Of a stretch of DNA of 64,000 nt, positions 23,009 to 32,213 are shown one piece after another. The notes under the pieces are model-generated. The model saw nothing but the letters and a program-made list of their open reading frames with translations, did not search any database and was not told where the DNA came from. The stretch lies in NCBI RefSeq assembly GCF_036203305.1, contig NZ_CP108131.1, forward strand, positions 2,294,001 to 2,358,000, written 5' to 3'. Position numbers and translations under genes: made by a program. Source of the DNA: Streptomyces sp. NBC_00190. Its GTDB lineage: Bacteria; Actinomycetota; Actinomycetes; Streptomycetales; Streptomycetaceae. The stretch's first letter is position 1, and each line of letters begins with the position of its first letter.

Positions 23009-23995
23009 ATGGAGCTGATTGCATGCAATCCGCAGGTCCTCCTCGAACGGGCCAGGGGCGCTCTTCTGGGCCTCGCGGTGGGCGACGCGCTGGGCGCCCC
23101 CGCGGAGAACATGAAGCCGTCGGAGATCCGGGCGAAGTGGGGCCGCATCGAGGGTTTCGTGTCGGAGGACCCGGCGGGCACGGACGACACCGAGTACGCG
23201 ATCTTCTCGGGGCTGCTGCTGGCCCGGCACGGCTCGGCGCTGACCGTCTCCCACGTGGAGCGGGCGTGGCACCACTGGATCGCCGACCTGGACGAGGGCC
23301 CGTTCCGCGGCGCGGGCTTCTCGGAGCGCGGCACCCTGGAGAACCTCCGCCGGGGCCTGGCGGCACCCATCTCGGCCCAGCACCGGCACGCGTGGAGCGA
23401 CGGCCTGGCGATGCGGGCGGCCCCCTTCGGCGTCTTCGCGGCCGGCCGCCCCGCGGAGGCCGCGCGGCTCGTCGCCATCGACGGCTGCGTCAGCCACGAC
23501 GGCGAGGGCATCTACGGCGGCCAGGCGGTGGCGGCGGGCGTGGCCGCGGCCATGGCGGGCGGCAGCCCCGCGTCGGTGGTCTCCGCCGCCCTGTCGGTCA
23601 TCCCCTCCGACTCCTGGACGGCCCGCTCGCTGCGCCGGGCCGTCACCGCCGCCCCGCGCGGCGAACGGGCCGTGCGGTCGGCGGTCGTCATCGGCGGCTA
23701 CCCGTGGACGGACCTGGCGCCCGAAGCCGTGGGCCTGGCCTTCGGCGCCTTCGCCGCGTGCCGGGGCGATTTCCCCACCTCGGTCCTGACCGCGGTCAAC
23801 ATGGGCCGCGACGCGGACACCACCGCGGCGGTGGCGGGCGCCCTGGCCGGCGCGATGTCGGGCGCCCCCGCGATCCCCGCCGACTGGGCCTCGGCCATCG
23901 GGCCGGTGCGCGGCAGCTGCCTCCCCTCGATGCGGGGCTACCACGTCCTGGACATCGCGGACCTCCTCACACCGGAAAACGAGGGCCCCCGATGA
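23009..23995 (+). CDS. ADP-ribosylglycohydrolase family protein 1
   Basis: 328 residues and a canonical DraG/ARH fold. LLGLAVGDALG (20-29), the dinuclear-metal loop TDDT (58-61) and the C-terminal GRDADT (266-271) retain every expected metal ligand, so this copy should be catalytically active on an N- or O-ribosyl bond. GGAGAGG precedes ATG 23009. It is the first gene of a seven-gene operon in which each following gene overlaps or nearly touches its neighbour. The natural substrate is unknown; DraG-type protein de-ADP-ribosylation and hydrolysis of small ribosides are both possible. Confidence 0.9.
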   Translation: MELIACNPQVLLERARGALLGLAVGDALGAPAENMKPSEIRAKWGRIEGFVSEDPAGTDDTEYAIFSGLLLARHGSALTVSHVERAWHHWIADLDEGPFRGAGFSERGTLENLRRGLAAPISAQHRHAWSDGLAMRAAPFGVFAAGRPAEAARLVAIDGCVSHDGEGIYGGQAVAAGVAAAMAGGSPASVVSAALSVIPSDSWTARSLRRAVTAAPRGERAVRSAVVIGGYPWTDLAPEAVGLAFGAFAACRGDFPTSVLTAVNMGRDADTTAAVAGALAGAMSGAPAIPADWASAIGPVRGSCLPSMRGYHVLDIADLLTPENEGPR

Positions 23996-25275
23996 CCCCC
24001 ACCCCGTTCAGCCCGGACACGATCCCCGCCCCGCCGGACCCGCCCGCGCCCCGCGCCTTCGCACCCCCCGCGGCATCCCCTCCGGGCACGCGGGCCACCG
24101 GGCCGGCCCCAGGTACCCCGGACGTCGCCGCCCCTGCCGTGGGGGACACGTCCGGCCCCCGCCGGATCGAGGGGCTGCTCCTCGGACTCGCCGCGGGCGA
24201 CGCCGCCGGGTGGCCCGCAGCCCGGCACCGCGCCAGCCGGATGCCCGAATGGACCCGCCGCCTGACCCGCGAGCTCGACACCTTCGCCGAGCAGAACGCC
24301 ACCACCACCCTCCCCGTCCCCATCGCCCTCAACCAGCCGCCCGAACCCCTGCGCCTCGGCCCCTCCGACGACGCCGAGTGGGCCGCCTTCGTCGCCGAGT
24401 CCGTGCTCACCGCCGCCGGCGTCCTGCTCAGCGACCTCTCCCGGTCCAGGAGGATGCGCGCCGCCATCGACCTCGCCTGGAACGCCCTCGCCTCCGAAGT
24501 GGCCGCCGCGGCGGAACGCGCGCCCGAGGTCGAGTCCGCCGTCCTGCCCCTGCGCGCCCGGATCTCCGTCCGCGCCGGCCTCGGCAACCTCGCCACAGGC
24601 CTGCGCCCGCCCGCCACCGGCCACGACAACCCGCACTTCTTCGACGACGCCGCCTGCGTCCGCGCCTGCGTCCTCGCCGTCGTCCACCCCGGCGACGCCC
24701 GCGCGGCGGCCGACCTCGCCGAGTTCGACGCCCGCTACACCCAGGACGGCGACGGCGTCCACGGCGCCCGCGCCATGGCCGCCGCCCTCGCGACCGCCCT
24801 CGCCGGCGCGGACGTCGACGCCGCCGTCGACGCCGCCCTCGCACAGCTCCCCGGGACGACCGAGATCGGCCGCAACGCCCGGCACGCCGTCAAGCTCGCC
24901 CGTACCCAGACGGAGGGCGGCGGCGCCTTCGCCATCGTCCCCGTCCTCGAACACGAGATCGTCGACCACGTCTACAGCTACGGGATCGCCGCCGCCGAGA
25001 CCGTCCCCGTGGCGCTCGCCCTGGCCACCGCCGCCCGCGGCAGGACAGCCGAAGCGGTCCCGGCCGCCGCCTGCCTGTCGCGCGTCGCGGACTCCGCCCC
25101 CGCCCTCGCCGGCGCGCTCACCGGCGCCCTCGGCGGCGGCGACTCGATCCCCACCGCCTGGCGGGAGGCCTGCCGCACCCTGTCCGGCTGCACCCTCCCC
25201 CGCCTCGCCGGCACCGATCTCGTGGAACTCGCCGCGCTCCTCGCTCGCACGGAACTCACCTCACCCAAGGGATGA
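23992..25275 (+). CDS. ADP-ribosylglycohydrolase family protein 2 (degenerate metal site)
   Basis: 427 residues. A Pro/Ala-rich extension of about 55 residues precedes the hydrolase fold. GLLLGLAAGDAAG is intact and the first metal loop reads SDDAEW (125-130). The C-terminal loop, GRDxDT in its neighbours, has become SRVADS (363-368), losing the first Asp ligand and replacing Thr by Ser. The protein may bind metal differently or be a non-catalytic subunit. It overlaps gene 1 by ATGA and gene 3 begins 7 bp after its stop. Confidence 0.87.
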   Translation: MTPTPFSPDTIPAPPDPPAPRAFAPPAASPPGTRATGPAPGTPDVAAPAVGDTSGPRRIEGLLLGLAAGDAAGWPAARHRASRMPEWTRRLTRELDTFAEQNATTTLPVPIALNQPPEPLRLGPSDDAEWAAFVAESVLTAAGVLLSDLSRSRRMRAAIDLAWNALASEVAAAAERAPEVESAVLPLRARISVRAGLGNLATGLRPPATGHDNPHFFDDAACVRACVLAVVHPGDARAAADLAEFDARYTQDGDGVHGARAMAAALATALAGADVDAAVDAALAQLPGTTEIGRNARHAVKLARTQTEGGGAFAIVPVLEHEIVDHVYSYGIAAAETVPVALALATAARGRTAEAVPAAACLSRVADSAPALAGALTGALGGGDSIPTAWREACRTLSGCTLPRLAGTDLVELAALLARTELTSPKG

Positions 25276-25282
25276 TTCGGAC

Positions 25283-26428
25283 ATGACGCTCACGTTGGAG
25301 GACCGGGCCTGCGGCGCTCTCGTCGGAGCCGCCGTCGGCGACGCGCTCGGCGGCCCGGTGGAGGGCTGGAGCCCGGACCAGATCCTGGAACGGCACGGCG
25401 GCCGGGTGCACGGCATCGTCGGCCCCTGGCACGAGGACTGGCGCACGGCCCGCCCGATCGCCCCGTACCACAAGGGAGATGGCCACGTCACCGATGACAC
25501 CCTCATGACGCACGCCCTGGTAAGGGTCTACGAGACGGTACGGGACCACCTGGACGCCTACGCGGTCGCGGACCACCTGGTGCCGGACCTGATGACCAAC
25601 CCGCGGTGGATCCCGGAGCTGGAGGCCGAAGCCCTCCCGCTCCAGCGGATCTTCCTCGCCGAGAAGTGGATCGTGACCCGGCTGCACTACGCGCACGCCG
25701 ACCCGCGCGAGGCAGGCAGCGGCAACATCGTCAACTGCGGTGCGGCGATGTACATGGCGCCGGTGGGGATCGTCAACGCGGGCAACCCGGCGGGCGCGTA
25801 CGCGGAGGCCCTGGACATCGCCGGCGCGCACCAGTCCTCGTACGGGCGGGAGGCGGCGGGCGTGTTCGCGGCGGCCGTGGCGGCCGCGTGCGTCCCCGGG
25901 GCCACGGCCGCCTCGGTGGTGGACACCGCGCTGTCCCTCGCGAAGGACGGCACGCGCGAGGCCGTCTCCGCGGTGTGCGAAGTCGCCTCCCGCCACCGGG
26001 ACTTCGAGTCGGCGCTGGCACCGCTGCGCACGGCGGTGGCCCCGTACGACTCGGTCGGCCCGGACTACCGCGCCCCCTCGCTCGGCGCCCGCCGCCCGTC
26101 CCGCCTCCACTCCATCGAGGAACTCCCGGTCGCCCTCGGCATGCTGCTGATCGCGGACGGGGGGTACGAGACCTCCGTGCTCGGAGCGGTCAACTACGGC
26201 CGGGACTGCGACTCCATCGCCACGATGGCGGGCGCGATCGCCGGGGCCCTGGGCGGCGAGGCCGCGGTCCCGGCCGCCTGGGCCAAGCAGGTCGCCGAGG
26301 CCAGCCGCCTCGACCTGCACGCCCCGGCCAGGTCCCTGGCCGCCGTGGCCCGCGAGGTCTTCGCCCGCGACCGCTCCCGCCGCCGCTCCCACGAGTCGGC
26401 CTTCACCGCGATCTCGACCCCCCGATGA
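25283..26428 (+). CDS. ADP-ribosylglycohydrolase family protein 3
   Basis: 381 residues, canonical motifs: GAAVGDALGGPVEG (15-28), VTDDT (69-73) and GRDCDS (306-311), so metal binding and catalysis look intact. The segment LVPDLMTNPRWIPELEAEAL and the Asn/Cys-rich loop GSGNIVNCGAAMYMAPVG distinguish it from copy 1 and suggest a different substrate. Start lies 7 bp after the gene 2 stop; stop overlaps the start of gene 4 (ATGA). Confidence 0.9.
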   Translation: MTLTLEDRACGALVGAAVGDALGGPVEGWSPDQILERHGGRVHGIVGPWHEDWRTARPIAPYHKGDGHVTDDTLMTHALVRVYETVRDHLDAYAVADHLVPDLMTNPRWIPELEAEALPLQRIFLAEKWIVTRLHYAHADPREAGSGNIVNCGAAMYMAPVGIVNAGNPAGAYAEALDIAGAHQSSYGREAAGVFAAAVAAACVPGATAASVVDTALSLAKDGTREAVSAVCEVASRHRDFESALAPLRTAVAPYDSVGPDYRAPSLGARRPSRLHSIEELPVALGMLLIADGGYETSVLGAVNYGRDCDSIATMAGAIAGALGGEAAVPAAWAKQVAEASRLDLHAPARSLAAVAREVFARDRSRRRSHESAFTAISTPR

Positions 26429-27900
26429 CCCCGCCCTGCCCGGACCAGCCCGCGCCGGTACGGCTCACCTGGGCGCAGCCCGAGGACCTCGTCGGGCACG
26501 AGCTGCGCCAGGCGGCCGAGGACGGCCGGGATCCCGGGCCCGCGCTGCGGGTCTGGCTGGCGGCGGGCGGCCACCCGGCGCCGGCCCGGGCCGGCGCCTC
26601 CCCCGCCCCCGCGCCACCCGAGCTCCGCGCCCTGGCCTCCCGCATCCTGGACGAGCTGGCCGCCCTCCCGTCCCCGGCGGCCGCCACCGAGCCGCAGTCC
26701 TGGAACGCCATCCGCGCCACCTGGCTCCCGGACCCGCGGGGAACGCCCGGCGGCTCCACGGCCCGGGAGCCCACCGCCCCGGGGCCTGCGGTCCTGCCCC
26801 CGGCCCCGGAAGCGGCGCCGGCGGGGCGGGACCCCCGTCTGCGGACCCGGCTGGAGGCCGCCTGGCTGGGGCGGGCCGTCGGCTGCCTTCTCGGCAAGCC
26901 CGTCGAGAAGCTGCCCCTCCACGGGATCCGGGCACTGGCCCGTGCCGCGGGCAACTGGCCGCTGAACGACTGGTTCACGGCCCGCGGCGTGCCGCCGGAG
27001 GTACTGGCCGCGTACCCGTGGAACCGCCGCTCCGCCCCCACCTCCCTCGCCGAGAACATCGACGGCATGCCCGAGGACGACGACCTCAACTACCCCCTCC
27101 TCGGCCTGCTCCTGCTCCGGCGCCACGGCAAGGGCTTCACCACCGACGAGGTCGCCCGGCTCTGGCTCGACGAACTGCCCGCCGGGCGGACCTTCACCGC
27201 CGAGCGCGTCGCCTACCGCAACCTCCTCCTCGGGCTGGAGCCGCCCGCCACCGCCACCCACCACAACCCCTTCCGCGAGTGGATCGGCGCCCTCATCCGC
27301 GCCGACGTGCACGGCTGGACCAACCCCGGCGACCCGGCCGCCGCCGCGGCCCAGGCCTACCGCGACGCCGCCTTGACCCACACCGGCAACGGCGTCTACG
27401 CCGCCCTCTTCATCGCCGCCGCCACCGCGCGGGCCGCCACCGGCCGGGCCGACGTCCACACCGCGCTCCGGGCCGGGCTGGCCGTCGTACCGCCCCGCTC
27501 ACGCCTCGCCGAGGCCGTCCGCTTCGGGATCGCCGCCGCCGCCGAACCCGACTTCGACCGCGTCGTCGACCGCCTGCACGCCCGCTACGGCCACTACCAC
27601 TGGGTGCACGCCGTCCCCAACACCGCCCTCATCGCCGCCGCCCTCACCCACGCCGACGGCGACTTCACCCGCTCCGTGTGCCGCGCCGTCTCCGGCGGCT
27701 GGGACACCGACTCCAACGGCGCCACCGCCGGCGCCCTCGCCGGACTCCTCGCCGGCTCCCCGGACGCCATCCCGCACCGCTGGACCGCACCCCTCAAGAA
27801 CCGTCTGGCCACCACCGTCCCCGGATTCGACGGCGTCGGCTTCGACGCCCTCGCCGACCTCACCCACCGGCTCACCGCACAGGAGGCAGCACGCTCATGA
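26425..27900 (+). CDS. ADP-ribosylglycohydrolase family protein 4 with N-terminal extension
   Basis: 491 residues, the largest paralog. Residues 1-135 form an extra region (RLTWAQPEDLVGHELRQAAE, then a Pro/Ala linker) of unknown function. The hydrolase follows with GRAVGCLLGKPVEK (149-162; the usual GD is GC), PEDDDLNY (216-223) and GGWDTDSN (424-431). The acidic DDD and WDTD motifs put it in a different subgroup, the one found next to PfkB sugar kinases (e.g. E. coli yegU-yegV). It overlaps the ribokinase start by ATGA, so hydrolysis to a free pentose followed by phosphorylation is a reasonable inference. Confidence 0.88.
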   Translation: MTPPCPDQPAPVRLTWAQPEDLVGHELRQAAEDGRDPGPALRVWLAAGGHPAPARAGASPAPAPPELRALASRILDELAALPSPAAATEPQSWNAIRATWLPDPRGTPGGSTAREPTAPGPAVLPPAPEAAPAGRDPRLRTRLEAAWLGRAVGCLLGKPVEKLPLHGIRALARAAGNWPLNDWFTARGVPPEVLAAYPWNRRSAPTSLAENIDGMPEDDDLNYPLLGLLLLRRHGKGFTTDEVARLWLDELPAGRTFTAERVAYRNLLLGLEPPATATHHNPFREWIGALIRADVHGWTNPGDPAAAAAQAYRDAALTHTGNGVYAALFIAAATARAATGRADVHTALRAGLAVVPPRSRLAEAVRFGIAAAAEPDFDRVVDRLHARYGHYHWVHAVPNTALIAAALTHADGDFTRSVCRAVSGGWDTDSNGATAGALAGLLAGSPDAIPHRWTAPLKNRLATTVPGFDGVGFDALADLTHRLTAQEAARS

Positions 27901-28820
27901 CGGCCATCGCCGTGCTCGGCAGTACGAACATGGACCTCGTCGCCTACGTCCCCAAAGCCCCCCGCCTCGGCGAGACCGTCACCGGCCGCGCCTTCCGCAC
28001 CGTCCCCGGCGGCAAGGGCGCCAACCAGGCCGTCGCCGCCGCCCGCTGCGGCGGGAAGGTGGTGATGATCGGCGCGGTCGGGGCGGACGAGTTCGGCGTA
28101 CGGCTGCGCTCCGCGCTCACCGCCGCCGGGATCGACACCGCGGCCCTGCGCACCGTCGAGGGCGCCAGCGGCACCGCCCACATCACCGTGGACGACGAGG
28201 GCGGCAACAGCATCATCGTCATCCCCGGCGCGAACGCCGCCGTCACCGGCCTGGAGTCGGGGGACGAGTCCCGGATCGCCGCCGCGGGCACCCTCCTCCT
28301 CCAGCTCGAACTCCCGCTGCGGGCCGTCCTCGCCGGGGCCCTCGCCGCCCGGTCGCGCGGCGTCCGTACGGTCCTCACCCCGGCCCCGGTACAGCCGCTG
28401 CCGGCCGAACTCCTCGCCGCCACCGACCTCCTGGTCCCCAACGAGCACGAGGCCGCCGCGCTCACCGGCCTCACCGACCCCCGCCAGGCCGCCGAGGCCC
28501 TGCTGGAGGACGTGCCCGAGGTGGTGATCACCCTCGGCGCGGCCGGAGTCCTGTACGCCGCCCGCGGCCGGGAGCCGCTGACCGTGCCCGCGCCCGGGGT
28601 CCGGGCCGTGGACACGACCGCCGCCGGGGACACCTTCGTCGGCGCCCTCGCCGTGGCCCTCGGCGAGGGCCGGTCCATGCCCGAGGCGCTGCGCTGGGCC
28701 TGCGCGGCGGCCGCGCTCTCCGTCCAGCGGCCCGGCGCCCAGGACTCCATGCCGACCCGCGCCGAGACCGACGCCTTCGCCGGGCCACGGCCCGCAGCCC
28801 GGCCCGGAGCCGCCTCGTGA
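27897..28820 (+). CDS. rbsK: Ribokinase (PfkB family)
   Basis: 307 residues with PfkB/ribokinase signatures: GSTNMDLVAYVP, GGKGANQAVAAAR (38-50), substrate-lid segment, and the catalytic loop DTTAAGDTFVGA with catalytic Asp245. It should phosphorylate ribose or a related pentose using ATP. There is no rbs transporter nearby. Instead it is coupled to four ADP-ribosylglycohydrolase paralogs, suggesting its sugar comes from their hydrolysis rather than from uptake. It overlaps both neighbours by 4 bp. Confidence 0.87.
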   Translation: MTAIAVLGSTNMDLVAYVPKAPRLGETVTGRAFRTVPGGKGANQAVAAARCGGKVVMIGAVGADEFGVRLRSALTAAGIDTAALRTVEGASGTAHITVDDEGGNSIIVIPGANAAVTGLESGDESRIAAAGTLLLQLELPLRAVLAGALAARSRGVRTVLTPAPVQPLPAELLAATDLLVPNEHEAAALTGLTDPRQAAEALLEDVPEVVITLGAAGVLYAARGREPLTVPAPGVRAVDTTAAGDTFVGALAVALGEGRSMPEALRWACAAAALSVQRPGAQDSMPTRAETDAFAGPRPAARPGAAS

Positions 28821-30010
28821 CGACCGCCGGGCCCCTGGAAGGGCTCCGCGTCCTCGACCTCGCCACCCTCTTCGCCGGGCCGCTGGCCGCCACCCTGCTC
28901 GGCGACTTCGGCGCCGAGGTCGTCAAGGTCGAGCACCCCGGCCGTCCCGACCCCTCCCGGGGCCACGGCCCCGCCAAGGGCGGCGTCGGCCTGTGGTGGA
29001 AGCTGCTCGGCCGGAACAAGCGGACGATGACCCTCGATCTGTCCACCCCCGGCGGCCGGGACACCCTGCTGCGGCTGGCCGCCACCGCCGACGTCGTCAT
29101 CGAGAACTTCCGCCCCGGCACCCTGGAGAAGTGGGGCCTGGGCTGGCCCGAGCTGTCCGCCGCCAACCCGCGGCTGGTCCTGGCCCGCGTCACGGCCTTC
29201 GGCCAGCAGGGCCCGTACGCCCGCCGCCCCGGCTTCGGCACCCTCGCCGAGGCGATGAGCGGCTTCGCCGCGATCACCGGGGAGCCGGACGGGCCGCCGA
29301 CCCTGCCGCCCTTCGGGCTCGCGGACTCGATCGCCGCGCTGACCACCGCGTACGCCGTGATGACCGCGCTCGCGGGCCGCGACCGCACCGGGCACGGGCA
29401 GGTCGTCGACCTGGCCATCATCGAGCCGATCCTGACGGTGCTGGGCCCGCACCCGCTCTGGTACGACCAGCTCGGCTACGTCCAGCCGCGCACCGGCAAC
29501 CGGTCCACCAACAACGCCCCCCGCAACACCTACCGCAGCGCGGACGGCCGCTGGCTGGCGGTGTCCACCTCCGCCCAGTCCGTCGCGGAGCGCGTGCTGC
29601 GGCTGGTCGGCCGGGACGAGCTGATCGCCGAGCCCTGGTTCGCGACCGGCTCCGGGCGGGCGGCCCACGCGCACGTCCTGGACGAGGCGGTCGGCGGCTG
29701 GATCGGCCGTCACAAGGCGGAGGAGGTCGTCACCGCCTTCGAGGAGGCCGAGGCGGCCGTCGCCCAGGTCTACGACGTCCGGGATGTGATGGCCGATCCC
29801 CAGTTCGCGGCCCTGGACACGGTCACGGAGGTCGAGGACCCCGAGCTCGGCCCGATCCGGATGCAGAACATCCTCTTCCGGCTCTCCGAGACCCCCGGCG
29901 GGATCCGCTGGGCCGGCCGCCCGCACGGCGCGGACACCGACGAGGTCCTGACCGAGCTCGGCCTGACCCGGGCCGAGATCACCGCTCTGCGCACCGAGGG
30001 GGCGCTGTGA
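28817..30010 (+). CDS. CaiB/BaiF family (class III) CoA-transferase
   Basis: 397 residues from GTG 28817 (GTGA overlap with rbsK). Family features: RVLDLATLFAGPLAATLLGDFGAEVVKVE at the N-terminus, ENFRPGTLEKWGLG, and the catalytic Asp in FGLADSIAALTTAY near residue 175. It transfers CoA between a carboxylic acid and an acyl-CoA donor through an Asp-acyl anhydride. Followed with a GTGA overlap by a CitE-like lyase, it would activate a hydroxy- or keto-acid that the lyase then cleaves. Acid identity unknown. Confidence 0.9.
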   Translation: MTTAGPLEGLRVLDLATLFAGPLAATLLGDFGAEVVKVEHPGRPDPSRGHGPAKGGVGLWWKLLGRNKRTMTLDLSTPGGRDTLLRLAATADVVIENFRPGTLEKWGLGWPELSAANPRLVLARVTAFGQQGPYARRPGFGTLAEAMSGFAAITGEPDGPPTLPPFGLADSIAALTTAYAVMTALAGRDRTGHGQVVDLAIIEPILTVLGPHPLWYDQLGYVQPRTGNRSTNNAPRNTYRSADGRWLAVSTSAQSVAERVLRLVGRDELIAEPWFATGSGRAAHAHVLDEAVGGWIGRHKAEEVVTAFEEAEAAVAQVYDVRDVMADPQFAALDTVTEVEDPELGPIRMQNILFRLSETPGGIRWAGRPHGADTDEVLTELGLTRAEITALRTEGAL

Positions 30011-30822
30011 TCCTGACCTGGCTGTACGCGCCGGGCGACCGTCCCCAGGTGGTGGCCAAGGCCCTGGGCTGCGGGGCGGACGCCGTCATCGTGGACCTGG
30101 AGGACGCGGTACCGGCCTCCCGCAAGGAGTACGCCCGCGCGGCGACCGCCGAGCTGCTCGCCGGCCGGCCCCCGGTCCCCGTCCACGTCCGCGTCAACGC
30201 GATCGACTCCCCCTGGGGCGGCGCCGACCTCAACGCCCTCGCCGGGCTGCACGGCCTGGCGGGACTGCGGCTTCCCAAGGTCAACGCCCCGGACCAGATC
30301 GTCGCCGCCGCCGTGCGCACCGGCGGGGTGAGCCTGCACGCCCTGCTCGAATCGGCGGTGGGCGTGGAACGCGCGTACGAGATCGCCCGCGCGCACCCCG
30401 CCCTGCGCGGGCTCTCCCTCGGCGAGGCGGACCTGCGGGCCGACCTGGCAGTCAGCGCGGAGACGGGCCTGGACTGGTGCCGCTCCCGGGTGGTGGTGGC
30501 GGCCCGCGCGGCCGGCCTCGCGCCCCCGGCCCAGTCGGTGTTCCCCGACATCCGGGACCTGGAGGCGCTGGCCGTCTCCTGCGCGCGCGGCCGCTCGCTC
30601 GGCTTCCTCGGCCGGGCGGCGATCCACCCCCGTCAGCTGCCGGTGATCGAGCAGGCCTACCTCCCCGGGCCCGAGGAGGTCACGGCCGCACAGGAGGTGC
30701 TGAGCGCCGCGCGGGCCACCCCGGGGGCGCTGGCCCTGCCCGACGGCCGGTTCGTGGACCCGGCCGTCGTGGCGGCGGCCCACCGCACCCTGGCCCTGTC
30801 GCGGCGGATGGCTACGCGTTGA
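30007..30822 (+). CDS. HpcH/HpaI (CitE-like) CoA-ester lyase
   Basis: 271 residues from GTG 30007. TIM-barrel motifs with metal and CoA-binding residues: YAPGDRPQVVAKAL, VDLEDAVP, VHVRVNAIDSPWG, LLESAVGVERAYEI, GEADLRADL and AAIHPRQLPVI. Enzymes of this family cleave malyl-, citramalyl- or citryl-CoA to acetyl- or other acyl-CoA plus a keto acid. It is the last gene of the operon; its 3' end overlaps the convergent beta-helix protein gene by 11 bp. Confidence 0.88.
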   Translation: MILTWLYAPGDRPQVVAKALGCGADAVIVDLEDAVPASRKEYARAATAELLAGRPPVPVHVRVNAIDSPWGGADLNALAGLHGLAGLRLPKVNAPDQIVAAAVRTGGVSLHALLESAVGVERAYEIARAHPALRGLSLGEADLRADLAVSAETGLDWCRSRVVVAARAAGLAPPAQSVFPDIRDLEALAVSCARGRSLGFLGRAAIHPRQLPVIEQAYLPGPEEVTAAQEVLSAARATPGALALPDGRFVDPAVVAAAHRTLALSRRMATR

Positions 30823-32173
30823 GCGCCGACCAGAGCCACTGGCCGCCGACCCGGACGTAGAGCCGCTTGTTGACGGAGTCCACCGCCATGGTGCCGTCCA
30901 GCGGCTGGCGGGTGAAGGAGGCGTCGGTGACCGGCCCGGGCACCAGCCGCAGGGGCGGGTTCGGCGCGTTCTTGACCGGGATCGTGCCGGTCGCCTGGGC
31001 GCCGAGGGTGCCGTAGCTGTTCTCCACGCGGAAGTCGCCGGTGGACGACTGCTCGTAGTAGATGTGGGTGCCGGTGGGCGCGGTGCCGTAGAGCCCGACG
31101 ACGTTGCGCAGCACGGCGGTGGAACCGGGACCCGAGTAGAGCGCCACGCCCGCGTTGACGGTGGCCTTGTCCCGGTTGGCGATGACCACGTTCTCCAGCG
31201 CGCTGGAGCTCGCCGCCCAGCTGATGATGTTGCGCGCGGTGGCCGGGGTGCCCGCCGCGAAGTCGCCGGCGTAGCAGTAGATGTTGGTGGCGTAGACCTG
31301 CTTGCAGCCCGCGTCGGTCTTCAGGTGCGGACCGCCCTGCATCCGGGAGGTCTCGAACTTGCAGTCCGTGAGGTAGACGCCGTTGGGGTTGTTGGTGGTG
31401 ACCGCGCCCTGGCCGATCCACAGGGCACCGGTGCCGAAGGCCTCCAGGCGGCACCCGGTGAAGTGGATCTGGTTGATGTTGTCCTTGCTGTGGCCCCAGG
31501 CGCCCTCGGTGGCGGAGGAGGCGTTGCGCAGCCAGACGTTGGGCTGGGTGGTGCTGCCGGTGGTGCCGGTGCAGTCCTCGATGACCAGGTTGTAGAAGCG
31601 GGAGTCCCAGAACTCCACGGCGTCGATGCACATGTCGTTGTTCGATGACATGAACACGTCGCGGAAGTAGGAGTTGTTGTTGTAGTAGAGCTCCAGCAGC
31701 AGGCCGGTCTTGCGGTTGCCGTTGAACCCGAGGTTCTCGACGGAGCAGTAGCGGCGATGGGTGGCGCCGGTGGAGTAGGCCGCTCCGGTGCCGGACATCC
31801 GCAGGAGGATGCCGTCGCCGCCCTTGATCAGCGTGGAGGCCTTGGCCCCGGCGCCCGCGAGGCGGATGCCGTCCGCCTTGACGGCCAGGGCCGGCGCCCC
31901 GGCCGCGGGCTTGACCAGGTACTTCCCGACGGGGAAGTACACGGTGCCGCCGCCGGCCGCGGCCGCCGCGTCGAGGGCGCGCTGGACGGCCGCGGTGTCG
32001 TCGGTGGAGCCGTCGCCGACCGCGCCATGGCCCTTCACGTCGAACCAGTCGGGCGTTCCCGCGGCCGTGGCCGCCGCGGCGGCCCCGCCGCCGGACATCA
32101 CCGCGGCCCCGGCCAGCCCGGCCACGGCCCCCGTCAGCAGTGCCCGGCGGGCGGTCTTCGGCTGTTCGGTCAT
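30812..32173 (-). CDS. Tat-exported pectate-lyase-superfamily (right-handed beta-helix) protein
   Basis: 453 residues from ATG 32173 (GGGGGAG upstream). N-terminus MTEQPKTARRALLTGAVAG has a twin-arginine signal. Then the Pectate_lyase_3 module FDVKGHGAVGDGSTDDTAAVQRAL and a parallel beta-helix of short repeats rich in Asn and aromatic residues (LYYNNNSYFRDVF, FYNLVIEDC). The C-terminus (DSVNKRLYVRVGGQWLWSAL) resembles a small capping module. It is extracellular and probably acts on or binds a polysaccharide. Catalytic residues were not identified. An operator-like palindrome lies directly upstream. Confidence 0.82.
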   Translation of the reverse strand: MTEQPKTARRALLTGAVAGLAGAAVMSGGGAAAAATAAGTPDWFDVKGHGAVGDGSTDDTAAVQRALDAAAAAGGGTVYFPVGKYLVKPAAGAPALAVKADGIRLAGAGAKASTLIKGGDGILLRMSGTGAAYSTGATHRRYCSVENLGFNGNRKTGLLLELYYNNNSYFRDVFMSSNNDMCIDAVEFWDSRFYNLVIEDCTGTTGSTTQPNVWLRNASSATEGAWGHSKDNINQIHFTGCRLEAFGTGALWIGQGAVTTNNPNGVYLTDCKFETSRMQGGPHLKTDAGCKQVYATNIYCYAGDFAAGTPATARNIISWAASSSALENVVIANRDKATVNAGVALYSGPGSTAVLRNVVGLYGTAPTGTHIYYEQSSTGDFRVENSYGTLGAQATGTIPVKNAPNPPLRLVPGPVTDASFTRQPLDGTMAVDSVNKRLYVRVGGQWLWSALNA

Positions 32174-32185
32174 GGTCTCCCCCTG

Positions 32186-32213
32186 ATGATCAACAGACAT
32201 CGGGGTTGATCAT
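32186..32213. promoter_or_regulatory. Perfect 9-bp inverted repeat upstream of the beta-helix gene
   Basis: ATGATCAAC (32186-32194) and GTTGATCAT (32205-32213) separated by 10 bp, 13-40 bp upstream of the start codon. Its AT-rich, symmetric form is unlike surrounding DNA and suggests a repressor operator rather than a terminator. Confidence 0.55.

Follow-up and report, generated by a model that had tools for sequence, protein, structure and literature searches.

We analysed a 64,000-nucleotide window of the Streptomyces sp. NBC_00190 genome (NZ_CP108131.1, positions 2,294,001 to 2,358,000; coordinates below are relative to the window), which contains, at 23009-30822, a seven-gene operon (g1 to g7) whose products are probably the cytoplasmic part of a system that imports and catabolises a ribose-containing conjugate. 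A sugar-type ATP-binding cassette (ABC) importer, unlinked to the operon in this genome and linked together with lacI in relatives, would take up the compound, and its ribosyl bonds would be cleaved stepwise by g1, acting as a heteromer with its degenerate sister g2, and by g3 and g4. Ribose would be converted to ribose-5-phosphate by g5 or by another genomic ribokinase. The carboxylic acid of the conjugate would be converted by g6 into a coenzyme A (CoA) ester, which g7 would cleave to acyl-CoA plus oxo acid; the likeliest acid is a hydroxy-dicarboxylate of the malate or citramalate type. The computed basis of this reading is the gene set, its association with the importer, the ribokinase match of g5, the residue losses of g2, a natural g1-g2 fusion and the separability of g6-g7; from these we infer the chemistry, the order of the steps and the identity of the sugar conjugate and the acid.

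The initial annotation had proposed salvage by hydrolysis of ribosyl bonds, phosphorylation of the ribose and a CoA branch for an acid. These elements are supported, and the scheme is widened by the LacI regulator and sugar ABC importer of relatives and, in some families, by a TIM-barrel-like protein. The importer and regulator could not be seen from the window alone because they are unlinked in this genome. The seven genes are as follows.

g1, 23009-23995, + strand: DraG/ARH-family hydrolase with TDDTE, GRDADT and Glu33 intact (PF03747, 205.6 bits)
g2, 23992-25275, + strand: degenerate sister of g1 that is predicted to be its non-catalytic partner (PF03747, 121.4 bits)
g3, 25283-26428, + strand: DraG/ARH-family hydrolase with intact metal motifs (PF03747, 172.6 bits)
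g4, 26425-27900, + strand: DraG/ARH-family hydrolase extended at the N-terminus by about 140 amino acids, its divergent DDDL/WDTDS motifs intact (PF03747, 170.5 bits)
g5, 27897-28820, + strand: ribokinase (Pfam PfkB; TIGR02152, 311.4 bits)
g6, 28817-30010, + strand: family III CoA-transferase (PF02515, CoA_transf_3, 402.9 bits)
g7, 30007-30822, + strand: CitE/RipC-like C-C lyase (PF03328, HpcH_HpaI, 105.6 bits)

All seven are free of internal stops and have a GC content at third codon positions of 0.94 to 0.98. The gene coordinates bear out the co-directional layout described earlier, with 4-bp overlaps at five of the six junctions and a 7-bp gap between g2 and g3, and the four pairs of metal motifs reported for the hydrolases (TDDT/GRDADT, SDDA/SRVADS, TDDT/GRDCDS and DDDL/WDTDSN) are all present in the translations. 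The gathering cut-off of PF03747 is 26.2 bits, which g1 to g4 all exceed (121-206 bits); they are four of the nine PF03747 genes in this genome.

Conservation of the gene set and of its hydrolases

A class sample of 197 genomes was searched with g4, giving matches in 40, and 20-kb regions were fetched around 32 ortholog-type matches (one per genome) and eight weaker ones. The set recurs across these actinobacteria: the order g1-g2-g3-g4-(g5)-g6-g7 is kept in 31 of the 32 ortholog-type loci, allowing for absence of g5 and for contig ends, and the exception, L070, has another order. By gene, g3 and g4 are present in all 32 loci, g2, g6 and g7 in 31 each, g1 in 30 and g5 in 27; the absences of g1 and g2 are at contig starts, and the single absence of g6 and g7 is at a contig end. 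In total, the gene set was found in 34 genomes of the class sample. Among 584 confirmed stretches from Streptomyces, the best 80 comprise 53 complete g1-g7 loci, 20 without g5, six cut by contig ends and one, L150, without g6-g7. The 20 loci without g5 miss no other gene that their contigs can show, g4 is in pieces in L149, and gltB, vit and g1-g7 follow one another in that order in 49 of the best 80. The recurrence of the gene order exceeds chance. In a phylum sample of 396 genomes, g3 was matched at E<=1e-40 in ten, all from its own genus; three genomes of family f36, among the 30 of these 396 that were listed, gave no g3 match.

In a 53-row tree of the four paralogs (midpoint root; the tool warned of long branches), g1, g2, g3 and g4 each form one group, and g1 and g2 are sisters (95/89). 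Motif columns of g1, which is alignable with the DraG structures 2woe and 2woc, are identical in 31/31 rows apart from one T/S change. TDDT and D-x-D-S are present in 33/33 rows of g3, one of which (L054) carries an internal stop, and DDD and DTDS in 33/33 rows of g4. The PF03747 match of g4 starts at residue 145, and a search of g4 against PDB sequences gave no match at E<=0.01. The DraG-type metal and catalytic residues, which through the alignment we take to be the equivalents of E28, D60, D61, D243 and D245 of DraG, are complete in g1 (31 rows), g3 and g4 (33 rows each) and incomplete in g2. The first residue of the g2 D-x-D motif is never Asp (0/32 rows; V in 16, L in 12, T in 3 and N in 1), and the Glu retained by g1, g3 and g4 is found in none of 11 g2 rows.

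The two sister genes are co-directional and at most 1.1 kb apart in 31/31 loci that have both, including the rearranged L070 and L071, and four Allokutzneria proteins of 673-676 amino acids are g1-g2 fusions (65-67% for the g1 part, 58-60% for the g2 part). Since catalytic residues are lost, the adjacency is without exception and a natural fusion exists, g2 is likely a pseudoenzyme partner of g1, which supports the earlier suggestion that this copy has a structural or regulatory role.

Ribokinase and additional glycosidase-like protein

The score of g5 is above the NCBIfam ribokinase equivalog cut-off (TIGR02152, 311.4 bits vs 299.65) and below that of the narrower PRK11142 (278.6 vs 341 bits), and all 14 PDB entries that it matches at E<=1e-30 bear the name ribokinase. 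By computation, then, the kinase would be of the ribose type, as the initial annotation had supposed. TIGR02152 was also searched in 61 operon-bearing genomes and two without the operon, a few of which may represent the same species twice. All 24 genomes whose operon lacks g5 (the 20 named Streptomyces, G073, G133, G123 and, from another family, G168) carry a strong ribokinase at another site in the genome (284-304 bits). Among the 37 g5-bearing genomes, 16 have no second ribokinase match at E<=1e-50 and 21 have one. For the 60 Streptomyces genomes, Fisher's test gives p = 1.5e-4, with kinship ignored and 26 of the g5-bearing genomes picked by hand. The operon is without g5 only in genomes that have another ribokinase, as expected if the pathway yields ribose, and support for the ribose branch is good. 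In a rapidly built tree of g3+g6 (78 rows), the state of g5 changes about eight times, at least five of these being forced by well-supported branches, and the changes may include gains as well as losses.

In 11 of the 32 class loci, a further protein of about 640-690 amino acids is encoded between g5 and g6, with a TIM-barrel-like N-terminus and a C-terminus of the formylglycine-generating enzyme (FGE) fold. The AlphaFold model of its Jiangella homologue has a mean pLDDT of 74.8. The genome of the window contains only a 64-residue match to it. FGE requires a pair of Cys residues; FGE activity was rejected for the extra protein, in which the match covers only part of the C-terminus and no second conserved Cys was seen in that part of the alignment, and we therefore treat the protein as TIM-barrel glycosidase-like with a lectin-type domain.

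Importer, regulator and acid module

Of the 32 class loci, 17 have a lacI gene, two permease genes and a binding-protein gene linked to the operon. These genes immediately precede g1 in 16 of the 17 and precede g3 in L070; the other loci comprise 13 from Streptomyces and two from outside Streptomyces that are truncated by the start of their contig. Pfam labels of the importer and regulator derive from one locus, L055, where the binding protein belongs to the SBP_bac_1 family. This LacI-controlled sugar ABC layout is also found before g1 in five of the best 80 of the 584 Streptomyces loci, and is not present at the window. The importer seems ancestral at the operon site, because it is linked in some Streptomyces loci and one of these (L153) adjoins gltB, as the window's operon does. 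The closest importer trio in the window's genome (G000:C1 6217317-6220443) lies about 3.9 Mb from the operon; its permeases are 64% and 62% identical and its binding protein 46% (E 1.6e-119), the next binding-protein match being at 28%. Binding-protein orthologs at E<=1e-60 occur in 29 of the 197 class genomes, and the gene set is present in all 29 (in G131 through locus L191); nine of them are Streptomyces, where the importer is unlinked to the operon. All five of the 34 gene-set genomes that lack the ortholog are Streptomyces, and it is missing as well from the two sampled Streptomyces genomes without the gene set.

A LacI-type palindrome, TGTAAACGTTTACA, is located upstream of lacI in L052, L053, L058, L070 and L191 (1-2 mismatches) and in four of the five importer-linked Streptomyces loci (0-1 mismatch). 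At one mismatch or fewer it occurs nowhere else in the 80 Streptomyces loci and 0 times in one shuffle of them, and at up to two mismatches it was not found in L088; it was seen only where lacI is linked. Upstream of g1, the palindromes vary from one Streptomyces species to the next (TGCCATGGCA and TGTCACCCGGGTGACA are examples), a pattern that would fit repeated replacement of the regulator in this genus. Given this variation, a common operator upstream of g1 in Streptomyces was rejected.

It is unlikely that the sugar is another pentose or a mixed oligosaccharide and that the DraG-fold enzymes are general furanosidases. The SBP_bac_1 membership of the binding protein and the TIM-barrel-like partner would fit such a broader system, as would g4-like PF03747 genes that adjoin other sugar-type ABC importers in L075 and L076 and lie about 3 kb from one in L078. 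These three loci suggest that the PF03747 fold is used more widely in sugar catabolism. However, the score of g5 above the ribokinase cut-off and the other ribokinase in 24/24 genomes without g5 speak for ribose.

Asp170 of g6, presumably the counterpart of Asp169 of formyl-CoA transferase, is invariant in 12/12 rows, and the PF02515 match assigns the protein to family III; it scores below the cut-offs of all seven NCBIfam models that it matched (the best, succinate-glutarate CoA-transferase, at 229.8 vs 750). Arg62, Glu115 and Asp142 of g7, which we take to be the metal-site residues of CitE-fold lyases, are invariant in 13/13 rows. This protein also scores below the cut-offs of all NCBIfam models that it matched (RipC, the best, 148.7 vs 375; citE, 130.3 vs 443.4), and its best PDB matches, 8khl and 9nzb, are both named acyl-CoA lyase beta chain. 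The chemistry established for CitE-fold lyases would make the substrate of g6-g7 a malate-like hydroxy acid.

The g6 profile matches 53 of the 197 class genomes at E<=1e-120, and therefore relatives of g6 exist outside the operon. Sixteen such contexts were fetched, two of which (L180 and L182) yielded no usable gene calls. Away from the hydrolases, L176, L179 and L181 combine a GntR regulator, g6-g7 and a DctM-like transporter (Pfam on L181 only); in L179 this cluster lies about 8 kb from a g1-g2 cluster on the same contig. The DctM-linked and operon lyases form one group (98/97), the former being placed inside the latter at weaker support (81/91), and in the g6 tree the position of the DctM-linked transferases is poorly settled. 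Because g6-g7 are also found with a DctM-type transporter, they are a separable acid module, and the acid and sugar branches are joined modules; the transporter family supports a free carboxylic acid as substrate. The acid branch is moderately supported. In eight other loci (L174, L177, L178 and L183-L187), a g6-like CoA-transferase gene is accompanied by varying subsets of MmgE/PrpD, cyclase, flavoprotein, amidohydrolase and Asp/Glu racemase genes, with g7 adjoining g6 in three of the eight; these sets look like an undescribed polycarboxylate or ring-opening pathway.

Several results weigh against the proposed catabolic system. In the window's genome, no lacI was seen beside the operon or beside the unlinked importer, and the window contains no TGTAAACGTTTACA at up to two mismatches; Jiangella-type (f19) loci have lacI yet no such palindrome at that threshold. 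Five of the 14 operon-bearing Streptomyces genomes in the class sample lack a binding-protein ortholog at E<=1e-60, and within Streptomyces alone (n=16) the importer-operon association is not significant (9/14 vs 0/2). Fold matches of the extra protein are weak: the best are TIM-barrel glycosidases and, for the C-terminus, FGE/EgtB, all at low TM scores, those for the TIM-barrel part being 0.26-0.37. Transferases from very different neighbourhoods sit among the operon ones in the g6 tree, so that the specificity of g6 is unreadable from kinship. We are not aware of any natural compound in which ribose is conjugated to a malate-type acid, and no assay of the predicted g1-g7 activities was found. 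L150 has the importer and g1-g5 without g6-g7 in the locus (only this locus of the genome was searched for them), and the smaller g1-g2 clusters with an importer in L071 (which also has g4 and a ribokinase), L179 and L190 have no CoA genes in the same operon; the acid branch is thus not obligatory.

These last loci, together with the DctM-linked g6-g7 pairs, would agree with two unrelated functions on one transcript, the importer and g1-g5 scavenging ribosides or ribo-oligosaccharides and g6-g7 degrading a hydroxy acid independently. Yet g6-g7 and g1-g4 remain together in 31 of the 32 class loci (the one exception being at a contig edge) and in 77 of the 78 Streptomyces loci with enough contig to assess, despite the changes in g5 and the relocation of the importer. 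Such constancy is unexpected for unrelated genes, and we regard this explanation as rather unlikely. The single pathway proposed by the initial annotation therefore holds as far as the linkage of the CoA genes is concerned and is modified in that its acid genes are separable.

Relation to known systems and to ADP-ribosylation

Glowacki et al. reportedly described, in 2020, the rus ribose-scavenging loci of Bacteroides thetaiotaomicron. These loci are reported to encode ribokinases, ribosyl hydrolases (including an ADP-ribosylglycohydrolase-type gene) and a dedicated transporter and regulator, with SusC/SusD-type uptake and a nucleoside hydrolase as hallmarks, and obtain ribose from nucleosides and other conjugates. 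Both systems combine ribokinase and ribosyl-hydrolase-type genes with a transporter and a regulator. However, the Streptomyces-type system pairs an ABC importer with LacI where rus uses SusC/D-type uptake, contains four DraG-type genes, one of them a likely pseudoenzyme, and adds an acid branch of CoA-transferase and lyase that rus is not known to have; no Pfam match to SusC/SusD or to a nucleoside hydrolase was found in g1-g7 or in the eight scanned L055 proteins. Escherichia coli yegTUV similarly pairs a PF03747 protein, the ADP-ribosylglycohydrolase YegU, with the PfkB kinase YegV and a transporter, but it has one hydrolase rather than four, another transporter class and no CoA genes. The CoA-transferase and CitE-type lyase resemble those of RipA-RipC itaconate/citramalate degradation and the citramalyl-CoA lyases, except that both proteins score below the equivalog cut-offs and no MaoC-type hydratase is present among the seven genes; the acid would therefore already need its hydroxyl group.

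The operon is flanked by gltB, a VIT-type gene and a pectate-lyase-like gene (identified by eye) and by gltD, lgt, trpB and trpM (identified by NCBIfam). The pectate-lyase-like gene (30812-32200, - strand) is convergent, overlaps the end of g7 by 11 bp and is present in one of the 80 Streptomyces loci. The strongest GC skew of the window, a minimum of -0.166, is at 24001-28000 (g2-g4), and Rfam gave no match at the gathering score within the window. PMC5036795 gives trpM as SCO2038 (trpX). Because trpM is nearby and the DraG/ARH homologues SCO2028-2031 are consecutive, synteny places g1-g4 as the putative equivalents of SCO2028-2031 of S. coelicolor, all four of which are termed uncharacterised, among eight DraG/ARH homologues of that species, in PMC9411070. 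Literature searches revealed no paper combining ADP-ribosylglycohydrolase, ribokinase, CoA-transferase and Streptomyces (the names DraG, ARH and ADP-ribosylhydrolase were not searched with ribokinase), and no description of the seven-gene set in the titles and beginnings of abstracts.

This family membership raises the question of whether g1-g4 are erasers of protein or nucleic acid ADP-ribosylation, with the kinase and CoA genes merely recycling the parts of freed ADP-ribose. Characterised members of the family remove ADP-ribose, SCO2028-2031 are themselves among the uncharacterised homologues, and the ARH-like SCO5809 of S. coelicolor is stated in PMC11833690 to reverse phosphate-end ADP-ribosylation of RNA. 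In contrast, purified SCO2028 and SCO2030 had no detectable activity on U-ADPr, the only substrate concerned, according to PMC13036486; other ARH-like proteins tested there were inactive as well. g1-g4 share the fold of DraG, ARH1 and ARH3, and g1, g3 and g4 share the metal-site Asp motifs, but all four fall far below the DraG and Tri1 equivalog cut-offs (TIGR02662, best 77.4 vs 337.05 bits; NF041672, best 49.5 vs 490 bits), g2 misses two residues and the context is sugar-catabolic, with LacI and a sugar importer linked in relatives. No transferase or toxin gene was recognised in the listed clusters (the Pfam scan covered L055 only), and an eraser function leaves the CoA-transferase/lyase pair without a reason. 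A defence role was rejected, as PADLOC gave no match for any of the seven proteins, and this likewise speaks against erasers. We consider the eraser explanation quite improbable.

A more specific form of the catabolic reading, which we put forward tentatively as possible rather than probable, is that Streptomyces and relatives have a dedicated pathway for an undescribed class of natural compounds, formed by ribosides and a hydroxy-dicarboxylic acid linked to them, and that its DraG-fold enzymes are catabolic glycosidases, one of them a heteromer with a built-in pseudoenzyme. If this catabolic role is true, PF03747 would be placed in an evident catabolic context whose substrate class can be tested, and a heteromer of catalytic subunit and pseudoenzyme would be predicted inside the family. 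It would also point to a ribose-acid conjugate eaten by soil bacteria, a nutrient of which, to our knowledge, there is no description. Half of the S. coelicolor DraG/ARH homologues (four of the eight counted in PMC9411070) would then be sugar-catabolic rather than ADP-ribosylation erasers, and the abundance of the family in actinobacteria would have to be read differently.

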